Assembly: GCF_001278755.1 (NCBI RefSeq)
Contig: NZ_CP012601.1
Location: 3,472,154 to 3,536,153, forward strand
DNA from: Bacillus sp. FJAT-22090
GTDB taxonomy: Bacteria; Bacillota; Bacilli; Bacillales_A; Planococcaceae
DNA length: 64,000 nt
Reading direction: 5' to 3'
A program made the translations under genes and the position numbers. The notes beneath the pieces were generated by a model. The model had not been told where the DNA came from, did no database searches, and was given only the letters and a program-made list of their open reading frames with translations. Shown in pieces: positions 1,185 through 29,290 of the stretch; position 1 is the first letter of the stretch, and every line of letters begins with the position of its first letter.

Positions 1185-1318
1185 ATTATTTGTCTAACTT
1201 TATTGGGTCAGTTCACTTTCTGGGTTCTTCTTTTTAAATACCTAAAAGATTGTGAAAAGATGTACTTAAAGTAACGGGTATATGCATCTCCTGGAAGGTT
1301 AGTTTGTGAAGAGTTGTA

Positions 1319-1346
1319 CTTAAACTAACGGGTGCTTTAGTTAAAC
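1319..1346 (+). repeat. Dispersed palindromic repeat, type A
   Basis: The core is ACTAACGGGTGCTTTAGTT with flanking arms TTAAACTAA and TTAGTTAAA that pair. It belongs to a family found about a dozen times in this window. A degenerate relative (TTAAAGTAACGGGTA) sits just upstream at 1266-1280. Type A copies lie after genes and are followed by a hairpin with a T run, here at 1349-1376. Confidence 0.75.
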
Positions 1347-1348
1347 TT

Positions 1349-1376
1349 GGCCATCATTTCGATGGTCTATTTTTTT
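1349..1376 (+). terminator. Intrinsic terminator after type A repeat
   Basis: GGCCATC and GATGGTC form a seven-pair stem around ATTTC and are followed by a T-rich tract. A near copy of the same hairpin follows the type A repeat at 2718-2744. Confidence 0.6.
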
Positions 1377-1424
1377 ATACATAACGTCAAGAAGATCTCA
1401 GAAATACATTTTGAAATGTTACAC

Positions 1425-1451
1425 TTTAACTAACGGGTCAGGATAGTTCAA
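1425..1451 (+). repeat. Dispersed palindromic repeat, type B
   Basis: TTTAACTAACGGGTCAGGA followed by TAGTTCAA. Type B copies differ from type A in the centre (GG[G/T]CAG in place of GGGTGCT) and sit upstream of the next gene, here the small membrane protein starting at 1502. Confidence 0.6.
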
Positions 1452-1501
1452 TAAAAAGATAAAGACAACAACAAGTAAATCACTAGACTGGAGTGTTGTA
1501 A

Positions 1502-1684
1502 TTGAAAGTTTTTTCTAAACTTTTTACAAGTACAAATATTAGTAGTATGACTATGTTTCTTGGTTTTTTGATTTTATATACTATTATTTCAGATATAGAA
1601 CATAACATATTTGTTATTGCAATTATTACAATACTTTTTTGGGTAGCTAATTCATTGCAAGTTATCAAAGAAAATAGGAAGTAG
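1502..1684 (+). CDS. Small membrane protein, hypothetical
   Basis: This 60-residue product starts at TTG 1502, eight bases after a GGAG at about 1490. It has two hydrophobic segments (about residues 16-34 and 36-53) and a short charged tail (KENRK), so it is probably a double-pass membrane protein. I do not recognise a family. The gene lies alone between a type B repeat upstream and a type A repeat downstream, the same layout seen for the next two small genes. It could be a non-coding stretch, but the RBS and hydrophobic pattern favour a real gene. Confidence 0.45.
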   Translation: MKVFSKLFTSTNISSMTMFLGFLILYTIISDIEHNIFVIAIITILFWVANSLQVIKENRK

Positions 1685-1711
1685 CACATTGATACCTCCT
1701 GTTAGTTGTTA

Positions 1712-1757
1712 TTAAACTAACGGGTGCTTTACTTCAAGAAGAGGTAAAGCATTTTTT
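1712..1757 (+). repeat. Type A repeat with overlapping terminator hairpin
   Basis: TTAAACTAACGGGTGCTTTAC forms the repeat, and its GCTTTAC pairs with GTAAAGC at 1743-1750 before ATTTTTT, so the right half of the repeat is also the left arm of an intrinsic terminator for the preceding small gene. This shows directly how the repeat can contribute to transcription termination. Confidence 0.65.
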
Positions 1758-1761
1758 CTTA

Positions 1762-1788
1762 TTGAACTAACGGGGCAGTTTAGTTTAA
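1762..1788 (+). repeat. Dispersed palindromic repeat, type B
   Basis: TTGAACTAACGGGGCAGTTT then AGTTTAA. It follows the terminator T tract through the phrase TTCTTATTG, a junction repeated at 2116-2124 and 23899-23910, and lies upstream of the zinc-ribbon gene. Confidence 0.75.
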
Positions 1789-1876
1789 CGAGTATGTTAT
1801 AAATAAGGGGAAGTTTAATAAAGTTGTTCATATCTAAAAATATAAAAGCATTAAAAAATCAAAGGTGGTTTTCAAG

Positions 1877-2074
1877 TTGAAATGCACCCAATGTCAAAGT
1901 GAAATGGTTACAGATTGTGGCGTTAATGTTGAAGGTGTAATGTATGGGATAAAAATATTTAAAAAGAGTAAAGGACTGTTCAACAAAGTGTCTGAAAAAC
2001 CAAAAGCGTGTGTTTGTCCGAATTGTGGTTATGTTGCGTTCTATATAGATAATAATTATAAGAAATTCAAATAA
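1877..2074 (+). CDS. Small zinc-ribbon protein
   Basis: A 65-residue protein with two CxxC knuckles, CTQC near the N-terminus (residues 3-6) and CPNC near residues 46-49, which should bind one zinc ion. The start is chosen as TTG 1877 because AAAGGTGG at 1861-1868 is correctly spaced from it; a GTG at 1865 lies inside that RBS. Small proteins of this type occur in many Bacillus-group genomes and are usually annotated as nucleic-acid-binding, but no function can be read from the sequence. It sits alone between dispersed repeats. Confidence 0.7.
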   Translation: MKCTQCQSEMVTDCGVNVEGVMYGIKIFKKSKGLFNKVSEKPKACVCPNCGYVAFYIDNNYKKFK

Positions 2075-2096
2075 ACGGCTAATAAAGTAAGTTTCT

Positions 2097-2148
2097 TTAC
2101 CTGTAAGGGTAGCTTTTTCTATTGAACTAACGCGGCAGTTTAGTTGAA
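2097..2148 (+). repeat. Terminator-like hairpin plus type B repeat
   Basis: TACC and GGTA flank TGTAAG at 2099-2112 and run into CTTTTTCTATTG, then the type B repeat TTGAACTAACGCGGCAGTTT at 2122-2141 with its AGTTGAA arm. The hairpin (CCTGTAAGGGTAGC) is almost the same as the one at 23882-23898 (CCTGCAAGGGTAGC). Confidence 0.6.
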
Positions 2149-2199
2149 TAAGAATTTGTTTTATTTTAGATTATAAAGAGCGAATTTAGGAGGGGTATA

Positions 2200-2712
2200 A
2201 TGTTAAAAAACAAAACTAAAAAATTCCGAGATATATTCCCTAGTCAAATATTTGAAATTTACCTAGAAGAAATTAACAAGTATGCTTATGGCGTTGTTTT
2301 ACAAGGGGATTTAAAATTAAATAAATATGATGATATTGTAATTGGATTTCTAAACTCCTTTACTAATGAGTCGCTTAAAGTATCAAATATACACGAACTA
2401 ATAGAGAGGAAACATTTCTCTATTATTGCTAATTCAGGTATCGCTTCAATACTTGATTATAGTTGGAAGTTTGTTGGTAGTTATTCTAAGCAGATTATGG
2501 ACAACAACGAGTTAAGCAAGATAGAATATGCAACAAAGTTTATGGATAAGTTCTATAAAAGTGTTGGGAATAGTCATTTACCTATTTCTGACTGCCAGAA
2601 AATAAGCGAAGAAGAATATAAAAAAATCCCTAACCCTCTTGGAATTGTAGGAGATATTGCTATTGAAAACGATTTAGTAACTATTGCTAGTGTCAGTTCC
2701 ACGCATTATTGA
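2200..2712 (+). CDS. Imm26-like immunity protein, orphan
   Basis: The 170-residue product resembles the immunity protein 26 family, which protects against secreted polymorphic toxins: an N-terminal block reads as DIFPSQIFEIYLEE then YAYGVVLQGD, matching the family pattern of a short beta strand, an FEI motif and a YGxV strand. A good RBS (AGGAGG at 2190) precedes ATG 2200. No toxin gene is adjacent, so this would be an orphan immunity gene. It is bracketed by a type B repeat and a type A repeat. The family assignment is from memory of the motif pattern. Confidence 0.5.
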   Translation: MLKNKTKKFRDIFPSQIFEIYLEEINKYAYGVVLQGDLKLNKYDDIVIGFLNSFTNESLKVSNIHELIERKHFSIIANSGIASILDYSWKFVGSYSKQIMDNNELSKIEYATKFMDKFYKSVGNSHLPISDCQKISEEEYKKIPNPLGIVGDIAIENDLVTIASVSSTHY

Positions 2713-2717
2713 TATTC

Positions 2718-2828
2718 TTCAACTAACGGGTGCTTTAGTTAAACAAGACCATCAAATAGATGGTCAATTTTTATGTCCAAAACATCAAGTAGATCTCAGA
2801 AATCCATAGTGAAATGTTACACTTAAAA
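2718..2828 (+). repeat. Type A repeat plus terminator, second copy of a 110-bp module
   Basis: The module starts with TTCAACTAACGGGTGCTTTA, continues with the hairpin GACCATC/GATGGTC (2747-2765) and a T tract, and ends with agatctcagaaat and gaaatgttacact blocks. The same order of blocks is present at 1319-1430, so two imperfect direct repeats bracket the three small genes between them. Confidence 0.65.
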
Positions 2829-3042
2829 TGTGTTATTACATCGACCCACCGTATTGTTTCACAAAAGCAACTTTATCACACCATAAGAATCTTAATGAAA
2901 TTTAGCTTGTCAATTACCTATAATACTAAGAATTAATATTTATGCTGCTTCTGATTGCATTAATGGTTAGTATCATATATTGTTGTAAATGCTAATACTT
3001 TGAGTTATTATAATTTTTAAAAAGTAAGTGAGGTGAAGAATC

Positions 3043-3768
3043 ATATTACAAACAAAGCCAGCTTATCAAATCATATATGACACGATTCAACAGAAAATAC
3101 TCGATGGTATTTTTCAACAAGGTGATATTTTGCCTTCAGAAGTTGAGTTAGAGAAGATGTTTAATGTGAGTCGAACACCTGTAAGGCAGGCATTAAAACA
3201 GCTCGAAAATGATCGACTTATTTACAGGGTGCAAGGTAAGGGATCATTTGTAGCAAATCGGCAGCCAAAAGAAACATGGACGAACATGTCAGGGTTTCGA
3301 AATCAATACAGTACCGATTGGGAGAAAATATCCGTAAGAACAATCGAACTAAAAAAAATAGTAGATCCCCATTTTTGTAGCCTTCTACATGTAGGAGAGA
3401 GTGAAGAATTGATTTATTTGAAGAGAATTAGGTATTTGAATAATCAGCCTATGATTTACCTGGAACATTATATTCGTTCCATATTGCCCATAGAGGTTTA
3501 TCAAGAAGATGGGGCATTTTCTTCTGTCCAAAAGTTGCTGAAAGAAAAAGCCGGTATCGAGTTAATAGAAGTTGAGGACGAAATAGAAGCTGTAATAGCG
3601 GATCCTTATATTTCCGGTGCATTGCAAATTCCTAATTCGTCAGCAGTCTTAAAAGGAACCAGGATTTCCTATACAGAAAATAGAACGCCAATCGATTTGA
3701 ATATTTTTTATATAAACACAAATAACTGGAAATATTACTCCCATTATCAAAATCATTCTCAAACTTAA
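3043..3768 (+). CDS. GntR-family regulator with UTRA domain, start codon abnormal
   Basis: The protein has an N-terminal GntR winged helix (PAYQIIYDTI, LPSEVELEKMFNVSRTPVRQ, GKGSFVANRQ) and a C-terminal UTRA ligand-binding domain (HutC type). Homology of the first helix requires translation from about 3043, where a good RBS (GAGGTGA, 3030-3036) is followed by ATA rather than ATG; the frame is closed by TGA at 3034. The first standard start is TTG at 3130, which would remove about 29 residues including the first helix. The gene is therefore either initiated at a rare ATA codon, mutated, or affected by a sequence error. It probably controls the transporter and catabolic genes downstream. Confidence 0.75.
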   Translation: MLQTKPAYQIIYDTIQQKILDGIFQQGDILPSEVELEKMFNVSRTPVRQALKQLENDRLIYRVQGKGSFVANRQPKETWTNMSGFRNQYSTDWEKISVRTIELKKIVDPHFCSLLHVGESEELIYLKRIRYLNNQPMIYLEHYIRSILPIEVYQEDGAFSSVQKLLKEKAGIELIEVEDEIEAVIADPYISGALQIPNSSAVLKGTRISYTENRTPIDLNIFYINTNNWKYYSHYQNHSQT

Positions 3769-3800
3769 AATAAAAAATGTCATAAATTAAAAATGAGACA

Positions 3801-3858
3801 AAAAACACCTATATAAATGTTTATGTTTAAAAAACGGCATTTGATAAAGGTGTTTTTC
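3801..3858 (+). terminator. Intrinsic terminator after the GntR regulator
   Basis: AAAAACACCT (3801-3810) pairs with AGGTGTTTTT (3848-3857), with further complementarity inside. It separates the regulator gene from the transporter transcript. Confidence 0.6.
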
Positions 3859-3965
3859 TATTTATACTAATATCTCCAAAGTAACACGATAAGACAGTTT
3901 TTAAAGAAAAAGCTAATTGGGAAAAATACTATCTTAATTAAATAAATAATACTTAGTATTATATC

Positions 3966-4077
3966 TTGTTGACAACTATTAATCCTATCATCTATTATTT
4001 AATTATTCGCATCTGTTAGAAAATAAATAATATTATATTTTCGGAGAATGTGTTTTCAACAATAAGTCTGTCAACAA
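3966..4077 (+). promoter_or_regulatory. Paired inverted motifs TTGTTGACAA / TGTCAACAA upstream of the transporter
   Basis: TTGTTGACAA at 3966-3975 is a near palindrome (TTGT-TG-ACAA), and its reverse complement recurs with one mismatch at 4068-4077 just before the RBS of the binding protein. Two opposed copies of a GntR-sized site in the intergenic stretch suggest operators for the adjacent regulator. The motif is seen; the binding is inferred. Confidence 0.3.
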
Positions 4078-4098
4078 TACAAAAAAGGGGGATTTTTT

Positions 4099-4887
4099 AT
4101 GTTTAAGTTAAAAAAACAGTTGATGTTAACTGCATTAATTGGACTATTGTCTATTATCATGATGGGATGTAGTGGCGAAATTTCTAAATCCAGCGCTGAT
4201 GGAAAGAAAGACGAAACATCAAAAGTTAGTATTGCAGCATTAAATAATTATCCACCACTTATGTTCAAAAAAGAGGGTAAGCTGGTCGGTTTTGAACATG
4301 ATATTTTGGAAGCGATTGCAAAAGAAGAACATCTTGATATTGTATATAAAGAGATGAAATTTGATGGATTTATTCCAGGATTGCAATCAAATCAGGTGGA
4401 TGTTGCATCTTCATTACTAATACGTGAAGAACGTAAAGAAGTAGTAGACTTTGCAGACGTATTCTTAAAATCCGGACTCGTATTAGTTGTTGCTAAAGAT
4501 AGTCCAATCCAATCATTAGAAGATCTGAAAGGTAAAACAATTGTCGCTACACAGGGCTCTACAACTTTAGAAAAGGCAAAAGAATTGGCAGCAAAATATG
4601 GTGGGGAAGCAAAGCCTCTAAAAGAAACTGATGCCCTTTACATGGATGTAGAAAATGGGAACTCAGATGCTCTCGTGCTCAACTCACCAACTGTTGACTA
4701 CCGTTTAAAAGTGGATGGAGACAATGTTAAATTCAGAATCGTAGGAGAACATCTGACTGTTGATGAACATGCTTTTGCTGTTAAAAAAGGAAATACAGAA
4801 TTAGTAGAAAAAATAAATTCAGGATTAAAGACCATTAAAGAAAATGGAGAATTCGATAAAATTCATGCTGAGTGGTTCGGTGAATAA
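4099..4887 (+). CDS. Amino acid ABC transporter substrate-binding lipoprotein
   Basis: A 262-residue SBP_bac_3 family receptor. It has a lipoprotein signal with the lipobox IMMGC (Cys24), then the two-lobed binding fold (FEHDILEAIAKEEHLDIVYK, GFIPGLQSNQVDV, VDFADVF, GKTIVATQGSTTLEKAKEL). Family members bind polar or basic amino acids and related small ligands at the membrane surface. ATG 4099 follows a strong AAAGGGGG. The next two genes encode the matching permease and ATPase, so the three form one importer. Confidence 0.9.
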   Translation: MFKLKKQLMLTALIGLLSIIMMGCSGEISKSSADGKKDETSKVSIAALNNYPPLMFKKEGKLVGFEHDILEAIAKEEHLDIVYKEMKFDGFIPGLQSNQVDVASSLLIREERKEVVDFADVFLKSGLVLVVAKDSPIQSLEDLKGKTIVATQGSTTLEKAKELAAKYGGEAKPLKETDALYMDVENGNSDALVLNSPTVDYRLKVDGDNVKFRIVGEHLTVDEHAFAVKKGNTELVEKINSGLKTIKENGEFDKIHAEWFGE

Positions 4888-4958
4888 CAACTTGTATAAG
4901 GACTTGGAATAAACGTTGCTATTTACAACGTGTTAAATTATAGAAAAGAGGTGTTTTT

Positions 4959-5615
4959 ATGGGAACAACACTAAAAGTAATTGAAGAAGCATTGCCATAC
5001 CTCTTGCAAGGGTTGTACATGACAGTTTTAATCTCTGTCGTATCAATAATCATATCGCTTGGTATCGGTTTGGTCGCTTGTTTTATGCGAATGTCAAAGT
5101 ATGCTATTTTGCGGTATCCCGCTGCAATGTATGTAAACCTCATTCGTGGGACTCCAATACTGATTCAAATATTATTCATCTATTTTGGTGCACCGTCTGT
5201 TCTGGATATAAGCCTTTCCGCTTTCACTGCGGGGCTGATTGCAATAAGTTTAAACATTGGGGCATATAATACAGAAATTTTTCGTGGCGGTATCGAATCG
5301 ATTAGTAAAGGGCAAATGGAAGCTGGCAGATCACTTGGCTTTTCATATGCTCAAACAATGGCATTAATTATTTTACCTCAGGCAATACGTCGAATGATTC
5401 CTTCATTCGTTAATCAATTGACTCATGCCATTAAGGATACGTCTATGCTTTCCGTAATAGGAATAGCGGAATTGACAATGGTTGGACAATCAATTTACGC
5501 AATGAACTTCAGGTCCTTTGAAATATTGACGGTAGTGGGTGCATTTTACTTTATCACCATTTATACCGTTTCTCTTATTTCAACTAGGATGGAACGGAGG
5601 TTTGTGATTACATGA
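4959..5615 (+). CDS. Amino acid ABC transporter permease
   Basis: A 218-residue permease of the HisM/GlnP type with about five transmembrane helices. The EAA loop that contacts the ATPase is seen as [22 protein letters not shown] near residues 125-145, and the N-terminal RGTPILIQ motif is typical of polar amino acid permeases. A single permease gene implies a homodimer. It starts at ATG 4959 after GAGGTG and its stop overlaps the ATPase start by four bases (ATGA). Confidence 0.92.
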
Positions 5616-6334
5616 TTAAAGTTGAGAATCTTTCCAAGTCATTTGGAAACTTAGAAGTCTTAAAAAATATTAGTACGTATATTGCACCACAAGAAGTGGT
5701 TTGCATTATCGGCTCTTCTGGTTCTGGAAAAAGCACATTCTTAAGATGTCTAAATCTCTTGGAAGAACCCACAGGTGGACAAATTATCGTTGAAGACGAA
5801 AACATAGTAGATAAAGACACGGATATTAATAAGCTCCGTCAAAAAATGGGGATGGTTTTTCAACAATTTAATCTTTTTCCACAAAAAAGTGTCATTGAAA
5901 ATATCACTTTAGCCCCAATGAAATTAAAAAAGAAATCTAAAAAAGATGCCAAAACGCAAGCGATGGAACTATTAAAAAAAGTTGGGCTATCTGAAAAAGC
6001 CGACGTTTATCCTACTAATCTGTCCGGTGGTCAACAACAGCGAGTAGCCATTGCAAGAGCATTGGCTATGGAACCCCATGTCATGTTATTTGACGAACCT
6101 ACTTCTGCACTTGATCCTGAAATGGTAGGTGAAGTTCTGAGAGTTATGAAGCAACTAGCAAAAGAGGGGATGACGATGGTCATCGTAACTCATGAAATGG
6201 GTTTTGCTCGTGAAGTGGCAGACCGAGTAATTTATATTGATGGTGGATGTATTATTGAGGAGGGTAACCCGCAGGATTTATTTTCAAACCCAACTCATGA
6301 GAGAACAAAAGCATTTTTATCAAAAGTTTTATAA
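5612..6334 (+). CDS. Amino acid ABC transporter ATP-binding protein (GlnQ type)
   Basis: A 240-residue ABC ATPase with Walker [10 protein letters not shown] near residues 33-41, a Q loop (VFQQFNLFP), signature LSGGQQQR, Walker [14 protein letters not shown] and the switch histidine (VTHEMGFA). Length and motifs match the polar amino acid uptake subfamily. It is translationally coupled to the permease through a four-base overlap. The importer likely brings in the substrate that the following three enzymes degrade. Confidence 0.93.
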
Positions 6335-6351
6335 AAGTATTTAGATTAGCT

Positions 6352-6393
6352 CTTCGTTTTTCATAGGATATCTAATCATTACGAAAAACGAAG
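6352..6393 (+). terminator. Hairpin after the ABC transporter genes
   Basis: CTTCGTTTTTC (6352-6362) and GAAAAACGAAG (6383-6393) form an 11-pair perfect stem with a 20-base loop. There is no T tract after it, so it may be a weak or bidirectional terminator or an mRNA-protecting hairpin that lets some transcripts continue into the dehydrogenase gene. Confidence 0.5.
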
Positions 6394-6487
6394 GCTCACA
6401 CTTTTGAAGGAAGTAGTCAAAAATTTTTAGAGTATCTTAGTATACTAAGTATGACATTTATATGTTTTTTTAAGAAGGAGAAGTCAG

Positions 6488-7495
6488 ATGACCAAAACTG
6501 TCCTATTAATTGAACCTACTATCCGTCCGATCGGAGTAGATTATTTAACTAGCAATTTCAATGTAGTAGTAGCACCTAATGGATTAGAAGAAACGATTAT
6601 AGAATATATAAATGAGCATAAAGCTCATGCAGTTATTATTAGAACAGAAAAAATCACTAAAAATATTTTAGAACAATGCCCTACTTTAGAGGTGATCGGT
6701 ATGCACGGAGTTGGATTAGATACTATTGACGTGCCAAGCGCAACAGAGCATGGAGTAATAGTATTGAATGCTCCATTCAGCAATTATACGTCAGTAGCCG
6801 AACACTCTATTATGTCAATTCTCGCACTGAGTAGAGATTTAAGAGTAAGTGATTCAAAAGTTAGAAATAACGAATGGAATCACAGAGAAGTTTATTTTCC
6901 AATGGAAATAAACGCTAAAACTATTTTGATTGTTGGAATGGGTAAAGTTGGGCAGGATTTAGCTAAAAAAGCGAAAGCGTTTAATATGAATGTGTTAGGA
7001 TTTGATCCATTTTTATCAGAATCAGAAATGAAAATACATGGTGTATTAAAGGTAGATGATGTGAACTTATATCTTCCACAATGCGACTTCATCTCATTAC
7101 ATGCACCACTTACAAAGAGTACTTTTCACATGTTTTCTGCAAAACAATTTGAATTAATGAAAGATACATCGTTCATAATCAACTTAGGTAGGGGCTCTTT
7201 GATAAATGAAGAAGCACTGCTAGATGCATTAGTTCATAAAAAAATAGGCGGTGCCGCATTAGATGTTTTAGAACAAGAACCTCCAAATAGCGATAATCCC
7301 TTGTTCAAATTAGAAAATGTAATCTTCACTCCTCATTTTGGCGGCGATACATTAGAAGCAAAGGATAGATGCTCTGAATCAATAACAAAAGAAGTTGGTA
7401 TTGTTCTTCAAGGTCAAATATCTCGGAATTTAGTGAATCTGCAAGTATTAGGCAATGCCAAATATTTAAATAAAAATTCAATTAGAAGGAGTTAA
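6488..7495 (+). CDS. D-isomer-specific 2-hydroxyacid dehydrogenase
   Basis: A 335-residue NAD-dependent dehydrogenase of the SerA / hydroxypyruvate reductase family. The Rossmann motif GMGKVG lies at residues 150-155, and the catalytic trio is present as R235 (NLGRGS), E264 (LEQEP) and H283 (TPHFGG). No C-terminal ACT domain is present, unlike many SerA proteins. It starts at ATG 6488 after AAGGAG and is followed five bases later by the DapA-like gene, so the two are co-transcribed. It probably reduces or oxidises a 2-keto/2-hydroxy acid in the same pathway. Confidence 0.88.
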   Translation: MTKTVLLIEPTIRPIGVDYLTSNFNVVVAPNGLEETIIEYINEHKAHAVIIRTEKITKNILEQCPTLEVIGMHGVGLDTIDVPSATEHGVIVLNAPFSNYTSVAEHSIMSILALSRDLRVSDSKVRNNEWNHREVYFPMEINAKTILIVGMGKVGQDLAKKAKAFNMNVLGFDPFLSESEMKIHGVLKVDDVNLYLPQCDFISLHAPLTKSTFHMFSAKQFELMKDTSFIINLGRGSLINEEALLDALVHKKIGGAALDVLEQEPPNSDNPLFKLENVIFTPHFGGDTLEAKDRCSESITKEVGIVLQGQISRNLVNLQVLGNAKYLNKNSIRRS

Positions 7496-7500
7496 ATAAA

Positions 7501-8388
7501 ATGAAATATCAAGGAATTATGACTGCTTTAGTTACCCCGATGGATGAAAATGGATTAGTTGATAAACAAGGTTTTGCAAATTTAATTCAAGATCAATTAA
7601 ATAATAATATTCATTCTTTACTTGTATTAGGCGGAACAGGTGAATATACTGCACTTAATATGGAACAACGAAAAATAGCGATTGATGTTGCAATAAGCGA
7701 AGTTAATGGCAAGGTACCGGTAGTAGTCGGTTTGCTTTCTCCTGGGTTGGGAGACAATATAGAATTAGGAAAATATGCAAAACAAGCTGGTGCCGATTCT
7801 GTAATGGCCGTTACACCGTTTTATGTAAGCCCGACAAAAGAAGGTTTCATTCAATACTATGAAGTCCTTGATAAAGCTTTGGACATGCCGATTATCCTCT
7901 ATAACATTCCGTATAAAACAGGCATTAATATGACGAATGATGTGGTGGAAAAAATTGTTGGGAAAATTCCGAACGTAGTGGGAATGAAAGTTTGTTCCGA
8001 TAACATGGGAGATGTAATTGAATTAATCCAATCTGTTGGAGATAAAATCTCAGTTCTTTGCGGAGAGGATTATAGAGCGGTTTCATCATTTATAACAGGA
8101 GCACCTGGTGCTATTACGGCCAGTTCCAACCTTATCCCAAACGTTTGGGTGAAAATCTATGATTTGGTTCAACAAAAAGAATACGATGAAGCAGTAGAGC
8201 TCCATAAAAAGTTTTTCCCACTCATGAAGGCACTCTACAGAGAAGGAAATCCGGGTCCTCTAAAAGCAGCGTTAAATATGATTGGCTTGCCAGTCAGTTC
8301 TGTTTCAGTTCCATTATTAGATCCTTCACTCCAGGTAGTAGAAGAACTGAAGAGTAAACTGGATGAATTGATCGTACCTGTAAGATAA
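7501..8388 (+). CDS. DapA-family lyase (dihydrodipicolinate synthase-like)
   Basis: A 295-residue (beta/alpha)8 class I aldolase or dehydratase. Schiff-base Lys163 (GMKVCS), Tyr134 (LYNIP) and the GGTGEY loop are present. However, the Arg that binds the aspartate-semialdehyde carboxylate in true DapA (Arg138 in E. coli) is Lys139 here (YNIPYKTG), and the active-site loop reads GGTGEY rather than GTTGES. Together with its place between a 2-hydroxyacid dehydrogenase and an aldehyde dehydrogenase, this argues for a catabolic lyase acting on a 2-keto acid rather than lysine synthesis. The exact substrate cannot be read from the sequence. Confidence 0.85.
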   Translation: MKYQGIMTALVTPMDENGLVDKQGFANLIQDQLNNNIHSLLVLGGTGEYTALNMEQRKIAIDVAISEVNGKVPVVVGLLSPGLGDNIELGKYAKQAGADSVMAVTPFYVSPTKEGFIQYYEVLDKALDMPIILYNIPYKTGINMTNDVVEKIVGKIPNVVGMKVCSDNMGDVIELIQSVGDKISVLCGEDYRAVSSFITGAPGAITASSNLIPNVWVKIYDLVQQKEYDEAVELHKKFFPLMKALYREGNPGPLKAALNMIGLPVSSVSVPLLDPSLQVVEELKSKLDELIVPVR

Positions 8389-8460
8389 CCTTTAATAGTG
8401 TTGGTTACCTATTCGACGAAATATTCAAGAAATACACTATTGTTGAATTAATAAAAACGA

Positions 8461-8494
8461 GAAACCAGTCATGATAAGAATTGACTGGTTTCTT
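8461..8494 (+). terminator. Intrinsic terminator after the DapA-like gene
   Basis: GAAACCAGTCA (8461-8471) pairs with TGACTGGTTTC (8482-8492), an 11-pair perfect stem ending in TT. The remaining sequence to 8782 contains the aldehyde dehydrogenase leader; no other gene is seen there. Confidence 0.75.
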
Positions 8495-10664: not shown

Positions 10665-10681
10665 GAAGTTGCACCGTTTTT

Positions 10682-12014: not shown

Positions 12015-12038
12015 TTCAACTAAAGCACCTGTTAGTTG
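12015..12038 (-). repeat. Dispersed palindromic repeat, type A, reverse orientation
   Basis: Read on the minus strand this is CAACTAACAGGTGCTTTAG with the TTGAA arm, one base from the type A consensus. It lies downstream of the minus-strand lytic transglycosylase gene, which keeps the rule that type A copies follow genes. Confidence 0.65.
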
Positions 12039-20706: not shown

Positions 20707-20719
20707 GGGGAGTGAGATA

Positions 20720-21913: not shown

Positions 21914-21935
21914 TTTGAAGATTTGGAGGAAAGAT

Positions 21936-22844: not shown

Positions 22845-22921
22845 CCTTTGTGATAGTTAATACAAAAGGGAACAATACAACTATAATTACGATATGGTAG
22901 ATATTAAAAAGGAGCAATTCT

Positions 22922-23023
22922 ATGGGTATTCTTATATATGTTTTGATCTCCCTATTCATTTATGGATTCTGTCTTTTATTAGGATTAATATATTCTAAAA
23001 GTAAGAAAGGGAAACACTTTTAA
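22922..23023 (+). CDS. 33-residue membrane peptide downstream of the ABC exporter
   Basis: A very short gene with an excellent RBS (AAAGGAG, then seven bases, then ATG). The peptide begins MGILIYVLISLFIYG, forms a single hydrophobic helix of about 24 residues, and ends in a basic tail (SKSKKGKHF). It lies 77 bases after the ATPase stop with no terminator between, so it is likely co-transcribed. It could be an exporter accessory peptide or a toxin-like membrane peptide; neither is established. Confidence 0.5.
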   Translation: MGILIYVLISLFIYGFCLLLGLIYSKSKKGKHF

Positions 23024-23103
23024 TATATTTTGAAGAAATAATAGTTCTGGACAGATAACTCATATTATTCAAAGAATACAGTAGGAACCTAACGCGTACC
23101 ACT

Positions 23104-23132
23104 ATTCAACTAACGGGACAGGGTAGTATTTA
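23104..23132 (+). repeat. Dispersed palindromic repeat, type B
   Basis: ATTCAACTAACGGGACAGGG followed by TAGTATTTA, a somewhat diverged type B copy upstream of the kinase gene at 23178. Confidence 0.55.
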
Positions 23133-23177
23133 GATTGAAGAGAGACAAAAAGATATGATTGGAAAGTGGGGAGCTAG

Positions 23178-23834
23178 ATGTTAAGGAGTGAACTTATTTC
23201 AGATATAGCAAATAGAATAATATGTCTAAAAAGACTCCATCCAATTAGAGTAGGAGTAAGTGGAATAACTTCATCTGGCAAGACAACGTTTGCTAATGAG
23301 CTTACGGAAGAACTTCAAAGTAGAAAGATGGATGTTGTTAGGACTAGCATAGACAATTTTCATAATCCGAGAGTTATACGATACAGACAAGGTAAGGAAT
23401 CAGCAATTGGTTATTACGAAGATGCTCACGATTACAATTCCTTTAAGCAGATACTTTTAATACCTTTAGGTCCAGGGGGAAACTTCCATTATCAAACAAA
23501 TTCTTTCGATTTAGAAAACGACGTGTATGTAAACCCAGAATTGAAAATAGCAAGTATGGATACGATTTTTATTATTGATGGAACTTTCTTATTTAAAAAG
23601 GATTTATGTAAACTATACGATTTTAAAATATTTGTTGAAACTGACTTTGAGTTAGCCAGAAAAAGAGGAGCTAAACGAGAAGAATTGGCATTTGGAAGTT
23701 ATGAAAAAGCAGAAGAAATGTTCCTTAATAGGTATCATGTTGCTTCGAAACTCTATCTAGACCAGCACTCACCGCAACTTAATGCAGATGTAGTCATTAA
23801 TAATAATGAATTAGATAACCCATTTTTTGTATAA
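23178..23834 (+). CDS. Uridine kinase-like P-loop kinase
   Basis: A 218-residue nucleoside kinase-like protein. Walker A is GITSSGKTT near residues 29-37, followed by RTSIDNFHNPR (a DxF motif as in uridine and pantothenate kinases), and IFIIDGTFLFKKDL as the Walker B region. A lid arginine cluster is seen in ARKRGAKREE. The acceptor is unknown; uridine kinase-like proteins of this size are common accessory genes in Bacillus. ATG 23178 follows GTGGGGAG. It lies between a type B and a type A dispersed repeat. Confidence 0.75.
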   Translation: MLRSELISDIANRIICLKRLHPIRVGVSGITSSGKTTFANELTEELQSRKMDVVRTSIDNFHNPRVIRYRQGKESAIGYYEDAHDYNSFKQILLIPLGPGGNFHYQTNSFDLENDVYVNPELKIASMDTIFIIDGTFLFKKDLCKLYDFKIFVETDFELARKRGAKREELAFGSYEKAEEMFLNRYHVASKLYLDQHSPQLNADVVINNNELDNPFFV

Positions 23835-23847
23835 AGGAAACTTATTC

Positions 23848-23933
23848 TTCAACTACTGGGTGCTTTAGTTGAACAAGTGGCTGCCTGCAAGGGTAGCTTT
23901 TTCTTATTGAACTAACTGGGTAGGTTAGTTGAA
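23848..23933 (+). repeat. Type A repeat, terminator hairpin and type B repeat in series
   Basis: Type A at 23848-23873 (TTCAACTACTGGGTGCTTTA), hairpin GCTGCC/GGTAGC at 23881-23898 with CTTTTTCTTATTG, then type B at 23907-23933 (TTGAACTAACTGGGTAGG with arm TTAGTTGAA). This is the clearest example of the full A-terminator-B junction between two genes. Confidence 0.75.
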
Positions 23934-23961
23934 GATAGAAAAAGATAAATGGAGGTGGAAA

Positions 23962-24201
23962 ATGTTATTATTATGGCAACTTTCATTATTTGTTTCAATT
24001 GCAGCTTTATTGGTGGGTCTTGTTAAAAAATCTTGGGTATTCCTACTAATTAGTACGATTACATTTATACCAATAGCATATTATTTTTCAGGGTCAAATA
24101 ATGCTTGGAAATATGTTGGTTTGACTCCAGCTCTCCTACTTGTTCTAACGATATTAATTTTGTTAATAAGTAAGAAGAAAACAAGGTCAATTAAAGAGTA
24201 A
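23962..24201 (+). CDS. Small membrane protein, hypothetical
   Basis: A 79-residue product with three hydrophobic segments (about residues 2-20, 24-42 and 52-70) and a basic C-terminal tail (SKKKTRSIKE). ATG 23962 follows GGAGGTGG; the upstream TTG at 23929 lies within the type B repeat and is not credible. Similar small proteins are scattered in Bacillus genomes without known function. A strong terminator follows. Confidence 0.6.
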   Translation: MLLLWQLSLFVSIAALLVGLVKKSWVFLLISTITFIPIAYYFSGSNNAWKYVGLTPALLLVLTILILLISKKKTRSIKE

Positions 24202-24238
24202 ATCGGAAATTTATGGCTGTATTTTATAAATGCAAAAT

Positions 24239-24290
24239 AGCCGAAAATATGTAAGCGGTGAATAAAAACTCACATATTTTCGGCTTATTA
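24239..24290. terminator. Long perfect-stem terminator
   Basis: AGCCGAAAATATGT (24239-24252) and ACATATTTTCGGCT (24272-24285) pair perfectly over 14 bases. It lies between the plus-strand small gene and the minus-strand helD gene and may serve both. Confidence 0.75.
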
Positions 24291-24347
24291 ATATTATTTT
24301 AAATAGGTAATTGACCCATGTGTTTATCCGTTAAAATTTCGGCTAAG

Positions 24348-26684
24348 TCAAGCTTGGATGAAATTTTCCCGCAATGCTTTTCTCAATAATGGGGTCGGTT
24401 CACCTACACTGTAAAGTTGCAAATAATGCATTGCTCTGGTGCAGGCGGTATAGAATACTCTACGAACGCTCTCATCGCCGTATACTTCCTCTGATGCGTC
24501 ATAAATAATGACAGCGTCGAATTCGATGCCTTTGGACAAATACGTCGGTATGACAACAACTCCTTGTTCATATTCAATCGAGCCGTTCTTCACTAGCTTA
24601 ATATCATCGATGTTGGACAAGGCTTCGTATGCACGCTTACTTTCCTCAGCTGATTTACATATTATAGCAATACTGTTATAACCAATATTTCGCAAAGTCG
24701 CGACTTTGGATGCTATGCGGCGGTGCAGTTCTGTGTGATCGAGCAATTGTGTCAGCACAGGTCGCTCACCATCGCGTTCAAAAGGAATAATCCGTTCGCC
24801 GTTAGGTACTAGTCTGCGTGTAAATTCGATAATCGGTTTTGTGGATCGGTAGCTGCGTGTCATGTTGATCGCTTCCGTTTCAACCTGTCCGTATAAGTTC
24901 ATAAGTGTGTGAAAATCATTCTTTTCACTTGCATGGGCGAATATCGCTTGATTAAAGTCACCTAGCACAGTCATTCTTGCCGAAGGAAATAAACGCTTTA
25001 GAAACTCGAATTGAAACGGTGAATAGTCCTGTCCCTCGTCAATAAGTATGTGCTTTATGGAGCGGTTCGTCTGAAAGCCTTGAATCAGCTCTTTCATAAA
25101 TAAGAACGGAGTAGCATCTTCGTTAGATAGTTTGCCTTCATATAGCATTTCCAGCGTCGCTTGACAAATTTCTGCCCACTCCGCGGGTGTTTCACCCTCT
25201 ATCCACTGTTTGATCTGCAGGGAATCAGCAAAAAGCTGCATATAAATCCCCTTAATGTCGATGAAACTAAATGTTCGGACTCGTTTACGTAACAGCTTCA
25301 ATTTCTGTTGAACAATTAAACGAGCAAGTGCTTCAGGCTCGATCTCATAATCGGCAATCGATTCTCTTTTAAAGCCGCGTTTTTTCGCTAAGTAGGTATG
25401 TGCCTTATGGTACTCCTCGTCGCTAAGTAGCTCGATTTTCTCTTGTACCCACGACATTGTCAGTTCAGCCTCTTGGGTTTCATTTATTTTCTGAATTAGC
25501 CAATCCTTTAACTTTTCAAGTCTATTATGGAAGCGGAGTGAAGTATCGTTACTATAAAACCTTTCTGCTATTTGTTGGGCGGTAACAATCGGCTTTCCTC
25601 TGAAGATTATGTCTTTGAATAACATTCCAGATAGCTCTAACGACTTCCTATATGATTCGATCGCTTCGAAAAAAAGGTGTGATGCTTTGAATCGAATACT
25701 CGCAACCCTTGGTCTGTAGGAAGGGGTATTCGTTGCAGTTAAAACATATTCCAATTGCTCGTAAGGATTTTCAACTTGAAATTCTTTACTTAGTCGATGG
25801 TCTAAGTATTCCTGAAATGTGACCTGCTGCATATTCTCTTCTCCAAGTTCTGGCAGCACATTGGACACATAATTGTTAAACATCGAATTAGGTGAAAATA
25901 GAATAATTTGATCAGCAGTCATACTATCTCGATATTTGTAGAGCAAAAAAGCTATCCGCTGCAATGCGGCCGATGTCTTGCCACTGCCAGCTGCACCGTG
26001 AACAATGAGCAGTCTCCCGCGATCATGACGAATGATTCGGTTTTGCTCCTGTTGGATGGTAGCTACTATATTGTGCATATGTTTGTCTGTGCCTTTGCCT
26101 AGCACCTGTTGTAAAATCTCGTCTCCAATGGTGAGACTTGTATCGAACATAGATTGAAGAACACCGCCACGGATTAGATATTGCCCCTTTTTCTCTAATA
26201 GGCCTTTGATTTCACCCCCAGGTGTTGCATACTTGGCCGGTCCGGTTTGATACTCATAGTAGACACTTGAGACAGGCGCCCTCCAGTCATAGATAAGAAA
26301 TTCTTCGCCACTTGCATCCGTAAGTGTGGAGATTCCAATATAAAATTGTTCCTGAGTAGATTCTCCTTCTTCTATGAAATCGATTCGTCCGAAGTAGGGA
26401 ACCTCTTGCATACGTCGAAGCTTGGATAATTTATTGGATACATGTCTATTGGTGCTTTGGCTTACTGATAGAGCCTGAGCCTCTTGTCTCAAGCCGATGA
26501 TGGTCTCAAGATAATCGTCGAAGGTATCAACATTCACCTTGACTTCATCCCAAAAGTGTTTGCGCATATTAACTAGTTCGTTCCGACGTCGAGAAGTTTC
26601 TTCCTCTAATCCGCTGATTCGCTCCGTTATTGTCTCAATTACACTTTCCACTCGTTTTTGCTCCTGCTGAAATTCTGAACACAT
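24348..26684 (-). CDS. helD: HelD-type RNA polymerase recycling ATPase (UvrD-like helicase fold)
   Basis: A 778-residue superfamily 1 ATPase. An N-terminal coiled coil (about residues 5-60, rich in Glu and Arg) precedes a beta-rich domain (LIYDWRAPVSSVYYEY), then Walker A VHGAAGSGKTSAALQR near residue 230, helicase motifs HILIDEGQDYSPFQ and LGDFNQAIF, MTRSYRSTK, and a C-terminal VVVIPTYLSKGIEFDAVIIYD block. This is the layout of Bacillus HelD, which dislodges stalled RNA polymerase from DNA. ATG 26684 is preferred because AAGGAG is well spaced; GTG 26693 overlaps the RBS. Confidence 0.88.
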   Translation of the reverse strand: MCSEFQQEQKRVESVIETITERISGLEEETSRRRNELVNMRKHFWDEVKVNVDTFDDYLETIIGLRQEAQALSVSQSTNRHVSNKLSKLRRMQEVPYFGRIDFIEEGESTQEQFYIGISTLTDASGEEFLIYDWRAPVSSVYYEYQTGPAKYATPGGEIKGLLEKKGQYLIRGGVLQSMFDTSLTIGDEILQQVLGKGTDKHMHNIVATIQQEQNRIIRHDRGRLLIVHGAAGSGKTSAALQRIAFLLYKYRDSMTADQIILFSPNSMFNNYVSNVLPELGEENMQQVTFQEYLDHRLSKEFQVENPYEQLEYVLTATNTPSYRPRVASIRFKASHLFFEAIESYRKSLELSGMLFKDIIFRGKPIVTAQQIAERFYSNDTSLRFHNRLEKLKDWLIQKINETQEAELTMSWVQEKIELLSDEEYHKAHTYLAKKRGFKRESIADYEIEPEALARLIVQQKLKLLRKRVRTFSFIDIKGIYMQLFADSLQIKQWIEGETPAEWAEICQATLEMLYEGKLSNEDATPFLFMKELIQGFQTNRSIKHILIDEGQDYSPFQFEFLKRLFPSARMTVLGDFNQAIFAHASEKNDFHTLMNLYGQVETEAINMTRSYRSTKPIIEFTRRLVPNGERIIPFERDGERPVLTQLLDHTELHRRIASKVATLRNIGYNSIAIICKSAEESKRAYEALSNIDDIKLVKNGSIEYEQGVVVIPTYLSKGIEFDAVIIYDASEEVYGDESVRRVFYTACTRAMHYLQLYSVGEPTPLLRKALRENFIQA

Positions 26685-26711
26685 AGCAACCACTCCTTAA
26701 AAAGATTGGTA

Positions 26712-26769
26712 TTGACAAACGAAAAAAGTATGATGTATAATATATAATAGGGATATAATGCGCATTATA
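26712..26769 (+). promoter_or_regulatory. Strong sigma-A promoter with a 16-base palindrome at the start of the transcript
   Basis: TTGACA (26712-26717), an 18-base spacer and TATAAT (26736-26741) match the sigma-A consensus exactly; a second TATAAT lies at 26743. The perfect palindrome TATAATGCGCATTATA at 26754-26769 sits just at or after the expected start site, ideal for a repressor. The promoter points away from helD into a short transcript ending at about 26928. Confidence 0.65.
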
Positions 26770-26886
26770 GTTTTAGGCATATATCTATATAAATTTACCA
26801 CAGGTTCTCATTTTTTTCAATGTATTGGTCATGATTTTTATGCTTGTCGATTCTTAATGCTATTTTGCCATAATAACACCAATTGA
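26758..26886 (+). CDS. Possible 42-residue peptide in a short transcript
   Basis: The frame opens at ATG 26758 within the palindrome and encodes a peptide beginning MRIIVLGIYLYKF, with cysteines at residues 22, 30 and 37. The RBS is weak (AGGG only four or five bases before the ATG). It may be coding, or the region may be a small RNA whose frame is open by chance. A terminator follows at 26900. Confidence 0.25.
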   Translation: MRIIVLGIYLYKFTTGSHFFQCIGHDFYACRFLMLFCHNNTN

Positions 26887-26899
26887 ATGCAAGAAACAC

Positions 26900-26928
26900 A
26901 CACCCGCTAAATAAGAGGGTGTTTTTTT
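26900..26928 (+). terminator. Intrinsic terminator
   Basis: ACACCC (26900-26905) and GGGTGT (26917-26922) flank an 11-base loop, followed by TTTTTTT. It ends the short transcript starting near 26748. The remaining bases to 27284 hold only AT-rich leader sequence for the next gene. Confidence 0.75.
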
Positions 26929-27284
26929 GACCACAATTTTACTACGAAATATATAAATTTAAACCTGAATCGTTAATAGTTAATTTTTGCACCCTTTCCT
27001 TGTTTAATTTGAATTAAATGGAAGAAGTCCAACTTCCTTTTTTTTTTCAAGATAAAGGTGATATAGTTTATAGAATTTACTATATCAACACCAATTTTAA
27101 ATTCGAATATTTAAAAACATTGAATAGATATTAACAATATTTGTTATTTGACGATAGTTATAAAGAGAAGTTTTTTCGGCATCTACGTCTAAAGTAGGGA
27201 TAATATTTTTAAAAAAACTTACTATTTAAACTAATGACGAAATGCAACTTTTCACAGATTTTAATAAGGAAGTGGTTTTAAATT

Positions 27285-27635
27285 ATGGCAGAAGGAACTT
27301 ACACAATGAACGTAAATCTTGCTAAGAAAACTGTTGATATGACGGTAAGCGGGACTTTTACTCCTGAAAAAGCTCAACAATTTATTAATGATTATCAGAA
27401 TAAGTTATCATCAATAAATGCAAGCGAATTCGTCTTGGAATTTGATTGCAGTGATTTGGATGTAGTAACAAAAGAAATGATACCAGATCTTGAAAATTGT
27501 TTAGCACTTTATAAATCTTCTGGATTTAAGAAAGTAGAAGTAGGTATTAGGAAAAGTGCTATAATCTCCATGCAATTAAAACGCTTGGCGAATAATGTAG
27601 GGCTAACTACGTTTGAGGTAATTCAAAAATATTAA
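27285..27635 (+). CDS. Small STAS-like protein, hypothetical
   Basis: A 116-residue soluble protein with an alternating beta-alpha pattern (MNVNLAKKTVDMTVSGTF, PEKAQQFINDYQNKL, FVLEFDCSDLDVV, then helix and KKVEVGIRKS). The arrangement, with a strand-rich start and the phrase SEFVLEFDCSDLD, resembles STAS domains of anti-sigma factor antagonists, but the usual phospho-acceptor serine motif is not evident. ATG 27285 follows AAGGAAGTG. It has its own terminator and precedes the KASIII-like gene by 160 bases. Confidence 0.6.
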   Translation: MAEGTYTMNVNLAKKTVDMTVSGTFTPEKAQQFINDYQNKLSSINASEFVLEFDCSDLDVVTKEMIPDLENCLALYKSSGFKKVEVGIRKSAIISMQLKRLANNVGLTTFEVIQKY

Positions 27636-27642
27636 TTTTTAC

Positions 27643-27682
27643 AAAAAGGTAAGGAGCTATTAAAGGGTCCTGCCTTTTTTAT
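27643..27682 (+). terminator. Intrinsic terminator
   Basis: AAAGGTAAGGA and TCCTGCCTTT form a stem with one mismatch, followed by a T run. Confidence 0.6.
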
Positions 27683-27797
27683 TTGATATTTACATAACAA
27701 AATTCGTAACTTAAATGTACTAAAATGATCACGCTTAATAACAAGATATGTAATTGTATATAATACTAAAATTTTATTCGAGAGGTTTCTTACGACT

Positions 27798-28784
27798 ATG
27801 ACTAACATTAGAATTAAAGCAGTGGATGTTTACCATGCAAAAAAACAAGTAAACAATGATGTTTATCTTGAACACTTTAAAAAACAAGGAAAAGATATTA
27901 CAAATTTCTTAAATATTATGGGAAGAAAAGAGCGTTATGTCATTGATAATCATGAAGAAAATACGATTACAATGGCGATTGAAGCAACAAATCGAGTGTT
28001 GAAAAAAGTGGGATTAGAAGGTAAGGATATAGATATGATTGTTTTTTCTACTCAAGTACCTGAAATGACTGTTCCAACCAACGCTATGTTCATTCATAAT
28101 GCCATTCAAGCAAAAAAAAGAACAGTTATTTTTGATATGAACGCAAATTGCGCTGGTATGTCGATTGCAGTAGAACAGGCGTCACGATATATGAAATCCA
28201 ATCCACATGTTAATACCGCACTTGTGGTAGGTTCTGATTATCTTTCATTAGTGGCTGATCCAAAAGATGCAATGACGTATGCTAACTTTGGGGATGCTTC
28301 TTCTGCTATTATTTTAGAAAAGACTGAGAATGATACAGGATTTATCGATGCGATGTTTGAAGTAGACTCAAGTAACCGAAACAATATTTTATATCCACAC
28401 AAGGGATTATCTCAAACAAATAAAGCGGGTGAAAGTGCAGAATTCATGCTTTGGCAGCCATTTGATGGAGCGATGTCACTCCCTTATACGTATGATATGT
28501 TTGAAGCTATTTTAGAAAGAAATCAACTTAAAATTGATGATGTAGATGCGTTCTGCTTATCTCAATTTGCTAAAGTGAATATTGATAAAATTCAAAGCCA
28601 TTTTGATATACCCGAAGAAAAATTTATTTATGTGGGAGACAAATATGGATATACTGGTACAAGCAGTCCTTTTATTGCTCTTCATGAAGGAATCGAATCA
28701 GGAAAAATAAAGCGTGGAGACTTAATATTATTTTGGACAATCGGTGGCGGTCACGAGTTCATTACAATGTTATTTAGATATTAA
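27798..28784 (+). CDS. KASIII (FabH)-like condensing enzyme with altered active site
   Basis: A 328-residue thiolase-fold protein aligning with 3-oxoacyl-ACP synthase III over its full length. The nucleophilic Cys is present (C118 in MNANCAGMS) as is the glycine-rich C-terminal loop (TIGGGHEF). The His of the FabH triad (PHQAN motif) is replaced by Ser255 (CLSQFAKVN), and the Asn (GNTSAAS motif) by Tyr285 (YGYTGTSSP). Such changes suggest an acyltransferase, thioesterase-like or non-decarboxylating role instead of fatty acid initiation. ATG 27798 follows GAGAGG. It is adjacent to a small STAS-like gene. Confidence 0.8.
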   Translation: MTNIRIKAVDVYHAKKQVNNDVYLEHFKKQGKDITNFLNIMGRKERYVIDNHEENTITMAIEATNRVLKKVGLEGKDIDMIVFSTQVPEMTVPTNAMFIHNAIQAKKRTVIFDMNANCAGMSIAVEQASRYMKSNPHVNTALVVGSDYLSLVADPKDAMTYANFGDASSAIILEKTENDTGFIDAMFEVDSSNRNNILYPHKGLSQTNKAGESAEFMLWQPFDGAMSLPYTYDMFEAILERNQLKIDDVDAFCLSQFAKVNIDKIQSHFDIPEEKFIYVGDKYGYTGTSSPFIALHEGIESGKIKRGDLILFWTIGGGHEFITMLFRY

Positions 28785-28805
28785 AAATGTAAATGTTCCT
28801 AAAGT

Positions 28806-28842
28806 AAAGGGCGTGGATTCGGGAGAATCTACGCTCTATTTG
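28806..28842 (+). terminator. Intrinsic terminator after the KASIII-like gene
   Basis: AGGGCGTGGATTC and GAATCTACGCTCT pair with few mismatches around GGGA, followed by ATTTGTT. A diverged type B repeat follows at 28851-28879. Confidence 0.6.
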
Positions 28843-28850
28843 TTGATTAA

Positions 28851-28879
28851 ATTGTACTAAGAGGGCAGGTTGGTTTAAG
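28851..28879 (+). repeat. Dispersed palindromic repeat, diverged type B
   Basis: ATTGTACTAAGAGGGCAGG followed by TTGGTTTAAG keeps the type B layout and position upstream of a small gene, with several substitutions. Confidence 0.45.
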
Positions 28880-28928
28880 AAGGATAGTGTGAGTCATATG
28901 TAGAATAGGTAATTTAGGGGTGATGATA

Positions 28929-29144
28929 ATGAGTAAACCAAGGGAAGCAACGCCAAAATATCTTATAATGATGTCTCTAATTTATGGCTTATTTGTAATT
29001 AGTCAAAGCGTTCAAGTTATTTACACACCCTATACATTTGTTAGAGTCGTAAACCTAATAGCTATAATCTTTCTCTCTTCAGCCATTGGGGCTTTTATAA
29101 GAGAGCTATTTATTTTAAAGAAGACAAAGTTAAGTGGTAATTAA
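28929..29144 (+). CDS. Small membrane protein, hypothetical
   Basis: A 71-residue product with two hydrophobic segments (about residues 12-30 and 36-56, including YLIMMSLIYGLFVIS) and a basic C-terminal tail (LKKTKLSGN). AGGGGTGAT at 28915-28923 best serves ATG 28929; ATG 28923 and GTG 28920 are in the same frame. It lies between diverged type B and type A repeats, like the other small genes of this window. No family was recognised. Confidence 0.55.
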   Translation: MSKPREATPKYLIMMSLIYGLFVISQSVQVIYTPYTFVRVVNLIAIIFLSSAIGAFIRELFILKKTKLSGN

Positions 29145-29237
29145 ATTATCAATTCGAGCGTTGTTCCAAGATATAACTTTGGAAAAATATAAAAAATTTT
29201 AAAAAAAGATTGAGATAAAAGATTAAAAAATTTCTTT

Positions 29238-29290
29238 TTCAACTATTGGTATTTAGTTGAAGAAACGGCTGCTTTAGAGAGCTGCTTTTT
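29238..29290 (+). repeat. Diverged type A repeat with hairpin
   Basis: TTCAACTATTGGTATTTAGT with the TTGAAG arm at 29238-29262 is a shortened type A palindrome. It is followed by a CGGCT/AGCTG hairpin and CTTTTTCTTATGG, matching the junction phrase after other copies. Confidence 0.5.

Follow-up and report, generated by a model that had tools for sequence, protein, structure and literature searches.

Superintegrons (IntI, attI and attC), the dif modules of Acinetobacter (pdif, XerC/D), and XerA and other single-recombinase Xer systems are the described systems closest to the one reported here, which we traced from a family of palindromic repeats in a 64,000-nucleotide stretch of the Bacillus sp. 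FJAT-22090 genome (NZ_CP012601.1, positions 3,472,154 to 3,536,153; hereafter the window). In the accessible text of PMC6449649, Acinetobacter pdif plasmids carry mostly 1-4 sites and some more than 10, and in that of PMC9024848, an IntegronFinder 2.0 survey lists one complete integron in Firmicutes (Limnochorda pilosa) and a few clusters of attC sites lacking integron-integrases (CALIN). The repeats in the window are real, and are predicted to be recombination sites of a large gene-cassette system. They occur as two site types, A and B, in arrays that alternate gene modules (right half of B, gene, left half of A) with linker modules (right half of A, usually a hairpin, left half of B). Modules are exchanged within the cores of A and of B, and a recombinase is embedded in the arrays as a special A-to-B module. 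We think it probable that this is a two-site cassette system of Bacillales in which the embedded enzyme recombines A and B as double-stranded sites in the manner of Xer enzymes, a chemistry that we infer.

Like superintegrons, the system has long arrays in which small genes, most of them unrelated to one another, point one way (GNAT, NUDIX, and many without a name), gene kinds that resemble superintegron content, and, in loci of the Psychrobacillus type, a tyrosine recombinase gene that diverges from the array beside a conserved leader. Unlike integrons, it has no IntI insertion, each unit has a second exchange point, it shows little sign of a folding constraint, its linkers behave like modules in their own right, and in a second clade the attI-like end lies at the 3′ side of the recombinase gene. 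It works like a superintegron while lacking two marks of an integron, the insertion and a single-point attC. Genes between two alternating Xer-type sites and modular shuffling are shared with the Acinetobacter dif modules; in contrast to these, the sites are not dif-like, the system has its own recombinase, and chromosomal arrays hold hundreds of sites. XerA and other single-recombinase Xer systems act at one or few sites; they use the same protein family (NF040815, 4a8e), but the recombinase gene lies here within cassette arrays.

Results

Two site types alternate at gene borders

Site A (AACTAAC-GGGTGC-TTTAGTT) is placed 3′ of a gene and site B (AACTAAC-GnnGCAG-TTTAGTT) 5′ of the next gene. 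The genome of this strain (G000, one contig of 4,210,291 bp) contained 247 A-core matches with at most 3 mismatches, against 0 for a reversed control. Most copies of A lie in arrays flanking the replication terminus. Site clusters were located in stretches at 837-1195 kb (+) and 1242-1313 kb (-), with smaller groups at 785-798, 3443-3449, 3464-3475 (the end of which is the left edge of the window) and 3910-3930 kb. A cores, PF00589 matches, dif and dnaA were counted over the whole genome, and other counts for this genome come from selected stretches. A weight-matrix scan of 764 kb of sequence including the window, with thresholds of 9.5 (A) and 6 (B), found 552 sites; the best scores in a shuffled control (one 620-kb copy, one strand) were 9.2 (A) and 0.6 (B).

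The initial annotation of the window had described an order of A, terminator and B that recurs at several gene boundaries, and had suggested checking whether copies prefer gene ends and whether A and B always bracket single genes. Among 547 successive same-strand site pairs in the stretches of this genome, alternation dominated (A-B 208, B-A 208), so that the order is non-random and holds as a general rule, with 91 B-B and 40 A-A pairs as exceptions. Module borders are formed by two alternating site types, as they are in dif modules. The two kinds of interval differed in length, as 177 of the 208 A-B pairs but only 1 of the 208 B-A pairs lay within 150 bp, and 198 B-A pairs were 150-3000 bp apart. 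The like-with-like pairs comprised some worn units and some true linker-less joints. At C1:877621-878000 we observed a near-repeated B-to-B segment of ~125 bp, which may be a very small cassette that was duplicated recently.

The 200 B-to-A gene modules had a median length of 652 bp; the longest open reading frame (ORF) was on the array strand in 172, on the opposite strand in 22, and 6 had none of at least 40 aa. The 172 modules and a median stop-to-A gap of 40 bp, both taken as raw figures, are in line with a placement of copies at gene ends. The bracketing of single genes stood for most modules only, as linker-less joints and longer segments also occur.

The A-B spacings fell into three classes, 32-54 (42 units), 56-62 (61) and 101-107 (65), with 9 others at 78-96. 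A hairpin of at most -6 kcal/mol before a T run was found in 35/42, 50/61 and 54/65 units, respectively, compared with fractions of 0.11, 0.20 and 0.10 when linker interiors were shuffled. In 105-class linkers, e.g. at window positions 2800-2826, a stretch like TGTGAAATGTTACACTT recurs beyond the terminator.

Both site types serve as exchange points for genes and linkers

Units that move together with their gene should show, by descent, a link between the letters at the gene end and the linker class. In a linkage test that left out the 9 A-B units of odd spacing, no clear link was seen between spacing class and A positions left of 17 (largest z 2.1, position 5), and a strong one was seen with A positions 17, 20, 23, 26 and 27 (z 22 to 47). 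In B, the class was linked through position 6 (z 10), and the link was gone from position 8 on. Over all sites, the left and right blocks of A were separate (cross z up to 1.2), and B fell into three nearly independent parts, namely a left block, a pair of variable bases at the centre and a right block (centre pair z up to 2.3; position 14 with position 6, z 2.6). This block independence, together with the linkage to class, is the pattern expected if exchange occurs in both cores and the B centre is flanked by two exchange points.

Homologous gene pairs were compared as well, leaving out L131 and L132 (from the same genome as the G028 stretches) and modules outside 150-3500 bp; there were 62 pairs at 75% identity, 46 at ≥88%, and 36 after single use of each module. 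Among pairs at ≥88% in which both linkers belonged to the three spacing classes, the class of the downstream linker agreed in 5 of 13 (4.4 expected by shuffling) and differed in 8, while that of the upstream linker agreed in 8 of 14 (4.9 expected) and differed in 6. The mismatches on both sides indicate that linkers change at both ends, although free change is beyond what this sample can say. One pair within this genome, 99.8% identical over 476 bp, had spacings of 104 and 50. Excess retention in homologous pairs was 0.67-0.87 at seven positions and 0.46 at two on the left of A, ranged from -0.02 (position 17) to 0.63 right of the A core and from -0.09 to 0.35 left of the B core, and was 0.33 to 0.66 right of the B core.

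We also found joints that lack a linker and have the centre of A or of B, plus two linker-linker joints, and joints of these kinds would be left by exchange of A with B. Orphan sites were mixed, some being worn units. Homologous cassettes recur at other places, with borders within the cores.

A Xer-like recombinase is embedded in the arrays

The recombinase is a Xer-like tyrosine recombinase of 281 aa. This genome has 19 PF00589 matches, three of which are inside arrays (two of 281 aa, one shortened), and a broken recombinase fragment lies at 853.8 kb. The typical locus among the relatives listed has a site A and a terminator at the 3′ end of the recombinase gene (int), while the 5′ end adjoins a leader that is conserved. 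Among the loci listed, this leader runs up to a B-type core, and the genes beyond that core vary between genomes. By strict patterns, A was within 90 bp of the 3′ end in 16/29 loci, and 18/26 had B no more than 130 bp from the 5′ end, the misses including diverged platforms, worn sites, and indels. This layout (A, terminator, int, leader, B) defines a recombinase platform bordered like a linker module. As in integrons, a predicted attI-like site lies beside the recombinase gene, where it may act as an entry site.

The protein scored 219.9 bits with NF040815 (cut-off 220), and its best PDB sequence match was 4a8e, a XerC-like protein of archaeal source. Active-site residues appear to be present in an alignment read by eye. 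In a tree of 33 rows, 14 of them shortened by start-codon trimming (L169 and L180 had no usable ORF), the recombinase formed a supported clade (99/98); the placement of IntI1 and of phage-type integrases in this tree is unsafe because of long branches. A phage-type integrase at 3457 kb was considered as the driver of the arrays and rejected, as it fell outside the recombinase clade. No LexA-type box was detected in the int leaders (0/26). Near the right-hand array, three tyrosine recombinase genes stand in a row (C1:1291555-1294066; L053, L054, L059), a layout like that of a recombinase-in-trio element.

A divergent true integron, in which A-linker-B would be an attC that folds single-stranded and is cut only on the B side by an IntI-type integrase, has a divergent int gene, an attI-like leader and one-way arrays of small unrelated genes in its favor. 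The consensus cores of A and B are, moreover, complementary, which lets A fold against B in some units. Nevertheless, the recombinase scored only 88 bits with TIGR02249 (IntI), for which the cut-off is 265, and the insertion specific to integrases of the IntI family, present in IntI1, was absent from the recombinase and its Peribacillus relative in our alignment (in which the IntI1 sequence was 99.7% identical to plasmid copies). Linkers change at A as well as at B, unlike in an attC with its single exchange point (R box), and folding is predicted only. We also looked for attC-like covariation between the mirrored arms on the left of A and the right of B and saw little sign of it: complementarity at five of six positions was within 1.4 standard deviations of shuffled partners, and at the sixth it was 2.3 above. 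We regard a folded-attC integron as unlikely, given that the insertion is absent, that exchange occurs at a second point and that the arms covary only weakly.

The recombinase tracks the arrays across genomes

We surveyed 121 genomes (this one and 120 relatives) for the recombinase gene (E ≤1e-60) and for the A core (at most 2 mismatches). The gene was present in 24 genomes, with just fragments in G008, G022, and G040. A matches were found in 41 genomes, 24 with at least 9 sites and 17 with one to four; the reversed A control gave four single matches over the 121 genomes. Of the 24 genomes that have 9 or more A sites, 20 encoded the recombinase, vs 4 of the 97 others. The relatives in G055, G070, and G097 (loci L104, L105, and L108), at 50-65% identity and without A matches, may serve other site sequences.

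At E ≤1e-80, the recombinase was found in 26 of 398 sampled Bacilli genomes and 17 of 145 genera. In a separate search, the named hosts among the matches listed include Sporosarcina, Lysinibacillus, Paenisporosarcina, Viridibacillus, Solibacillus, Neobacillus, Peribacillus, and Cytobacillus. It is also plasmid-borne, for example on pSP10-266k of Sporosarcina psychrophila, which has a cassette in common with G007, a genome of the same genus as the strain studied here (94% over 383 bp). A 105-class linker query (134 bp of the window) had 1 match in plasmids, in Paenisporosarcina antarctica, and none in phages.

Site orientation reverses at a dif-like site

A single dif-like site was found in this genome (1,242,099-1,242,126, 28 bp), with 3 mismatches to the B. 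subtilis dif sequence; dnaA is at 3.191 Mb. From 800 kb to dif, 404 sites were on the + strand and 6 on the - strand, while past dif 75 were on the - strand and 1 on the + strand, the first - site being 415 bp beyond the dif end. Arrays of mostly single-gene cassettes in one direction, as seen here (longest ORF on the array strand in 172/200 modules), are a trait of integrons. Exact 15-base A cores of G010 were + in 10/10 before dif and - in 39/40 after. No dif-like site was found in G007, where site direction flips roughly opposite dnaA, with at least 2 exceptions among the sites listed. The group at 3443-3449 kb (-) of this genome breaks the direction rule, and a general leading-strand gene bias may explain part of the array direction.

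The flip at the dif-like site, the alternating site types, and the near-palindromic arms with 6-7 bp centres would suit dif modules, i.e. sites related to dif and moved by host XerC and XerD, with the embedded recombinase incidental. However, the chromosomal dif-like site resembles, by eye, neither A nor B, although dif modules match the chromosomal dif, and the recombinase co-occurs with the arrays and forms one of their modules; this explanation is thus very unlikely. Mobile terminator elements, like miniature inverted-repeat transposable elements (MITEs) or repetitive extragenic palindromic (REP) sequences, that hop into gene ends while homologous recombination shuffles the genes would explain the few linker classes, their many copies and the terminator-like hairpins, but are hard to credit given that genes, not repeats alone, relocate with borders in 20-bp cores, that order and direction are kept over hundreds of kilobases, and that the recombinase module shares the same borders.

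Cassette genes

The 182 cassette proteins of at least 60 aa fell into 152 families. Pfam searches with 142 array-strand proteins of at least 80 aa (E ≤1e-4) matched 105 families in all, including GNAT (PF00583) with 13 members, NUDIX with 6, MFS with 5, and insertion sequence (IS)-type rve with 2. Five anti-phage defence models matched cassette proteins, with 1 or 2 members each. Shine-Dalgarno-like motifs were present in 59 cassette leaders, compared with 11.3 expected.

Site copies and modules in the window

All 12 copies reported in the initial annotation were recovered, far beyond chance: with at most 3 mismatches, A had 5 matches in the window (0.02 expected) and B had 4 (0.00 expected), weaker B-type copies at 23108 and 28855 came from a comparison of repeat families within the window, and the copy near 29242 proved to be a degenerate linker only. 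That annotation had proposed either a cassette-joining sequence or a mobile intergenic unit; both are supported, each for one half of the system. Of the arrays, the window includes just one end and, at 23-29 kb, a degenerate remnant; the main ones are elsewhere in the genome. Its features are as follows.

1323..1342, +, site A, opens a 105-class linker (core match)
1343..1427, +, linker module of the 105 class, hairpin and T run (A-B spacing of 105, sequence, class-wide hairpin counts)
1428..1448, +, site B, AACTAACGGGTCAGGATAGTT (core match)
1449..1714, +, gene cassette 1, ORF 1502-1684 (60 aa), no Pfam match
1715..1734, +, site A (core match)
1735..1764, +, linker module of the 50 class, hairpin and T run (spacing, sequence)
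1765..1785, +, site B (core match)
1786..2074, +, gene cassette 2, ORF 1865-2074 (69 aa), two CxxC motifs by eye, no Pfam match
2075..2124, +, worn linker with an unrecognisable A site (sequence; no A match by core or weight-matrix scan)
2125..2145, +, site B (core match)
2146..2720, +, gene cassette 3, ORF 2200-2712 (170 aa), similarity to Imm26 (E 0.0068) below the Pfam cut-off
2721..2740, +, site A, the last of the array (core match)
2741..2826, +, 105-class linker with its B half broken off, array end (84% identity to 1319-1429, family D3)
12018..12037, -, isolated A-type site (core match)
23108..23128, +, degenerate site B, opens the remnant array (family D2; below the weight-matrix threshold)
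23129..23850, +, gene cassette, ORF 23178-23834, PRK / uridine-kinase family (Pfam PF00485, E 3.4e-07)
23851..23930, +, site A (23851-23870), 60-class linker, site B (23910-23930) (core matches)
23931..24205, +, gene cassette, small ORF, no Pfam match
28855..28875, +, degenerate site B, followed by ORF 28920-29144 (weak copy)
29242..29299, +, degenerate A and 60-class linker (77% identity over 48 bp to 23864-23911, family D11)

Homologs of cassette 1 were found in this genome near 905.2 kb and 1271.0 kb, as the second part of a longer segment with a worn internal B, and in a same-genus genome (L096), where the homolog stands directly behind the attI-like recombinase leader. No Rfam model matched the window at the gathering threshold. 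On its left, the array end is adjoined by an IS3-type transposase ORF pair (31-1184), the second ORF of which contains rve and HTH_21.

Discussion

In the mechanism that we propose, the recombinase would bind the near-palindromic arms of A and B and join A with A, B with B and, at times, A with B. Gene-plus-linker circles would be cut out and inserted in this manner, with the int leader serving as one site of entry. Through their different lengths, the centres (6 bp in A, 7 bp in B) would keep genes and linkers alternating and genes in one direction, and the terminators of the linkers would block read-through into neighboring genes. A cassette enzyme of the Xer-like type is plausible, since integron integrases, according to the accessible text of PMC4792948, retain the ability for second-strand exchange between double-stranded sites.

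Several points weigh against this Xer-type, two-site reading. Four array-bearing draft genomes (G002, G004, G009, and G013) gave no recombinase match, and four genomes with the recombinase (G012, G055, G070, and G097) have few or no A sites. Several int loci showed no A or B by the patterns of this genome, and in three Peribacillus-type loci (~62% identity) int points along the array, with the variable joint after its 3′ end, past ACTATCG. The sample of homologous pairs is small; the upstream agreement of 8/14 was matched in 7% of shuffles, so that some co-travel of linker and gene is possible. Retention is not clean, with an excess of ~0.6 at three positions right of A and of just 0.33-0.66 on the right of B, and the missing linkage at A might partly stem from an independent origin of gene ends. 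To these are added the one mirrored arm position with raised complementarity and the frequency of promoter-like sites before cassette genes, which was close to that expected from shuffles (33/111 vs 31.1). It should also be noted that we infer recombination, the circles and the leader as entry point from comparison.

Our search found no description of the motif or of such Bacillales systems in the literature, a search in which bioRxiv and most subscription papers were outside the scope; nor is the system described in the accessible text of PMC9024848, PMC8618304, PMC9668308, PMC6449649, PMC8138268, PMC11919988, or PMC4792948. A 10-mer of the motif occurs in 19 papers, the titles of which give no hint of such a system. 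On the sequence comparisons made here, we put at about even the chance that it represents a third kind of prokaryotic gene-cassette system beside integrons and dif modules, with a Xer-like enzyme, double-stranded sites of two classes, and genes and terminator linkers that would be separately exchangeable.

Firmicutes are regarded as a phylum in which integrons are very rare. Here, several hundred cassette joints were seen in a single Bacillales genome. A third kind would mean that Gram-positive bacteria have an independent counterpart of the superintegron, distributed through Bacillales and plasmids, with arrays that follow the direction of replication. Should the mechanism hold, Gram-positive bacteria would have a large gene-shuffling platform of their own, a source of many small genes yet to be studied, which would also provide a natural test of a double-strand Xer enzyme that builds arrays and would bear on the origin of the integron integrase.

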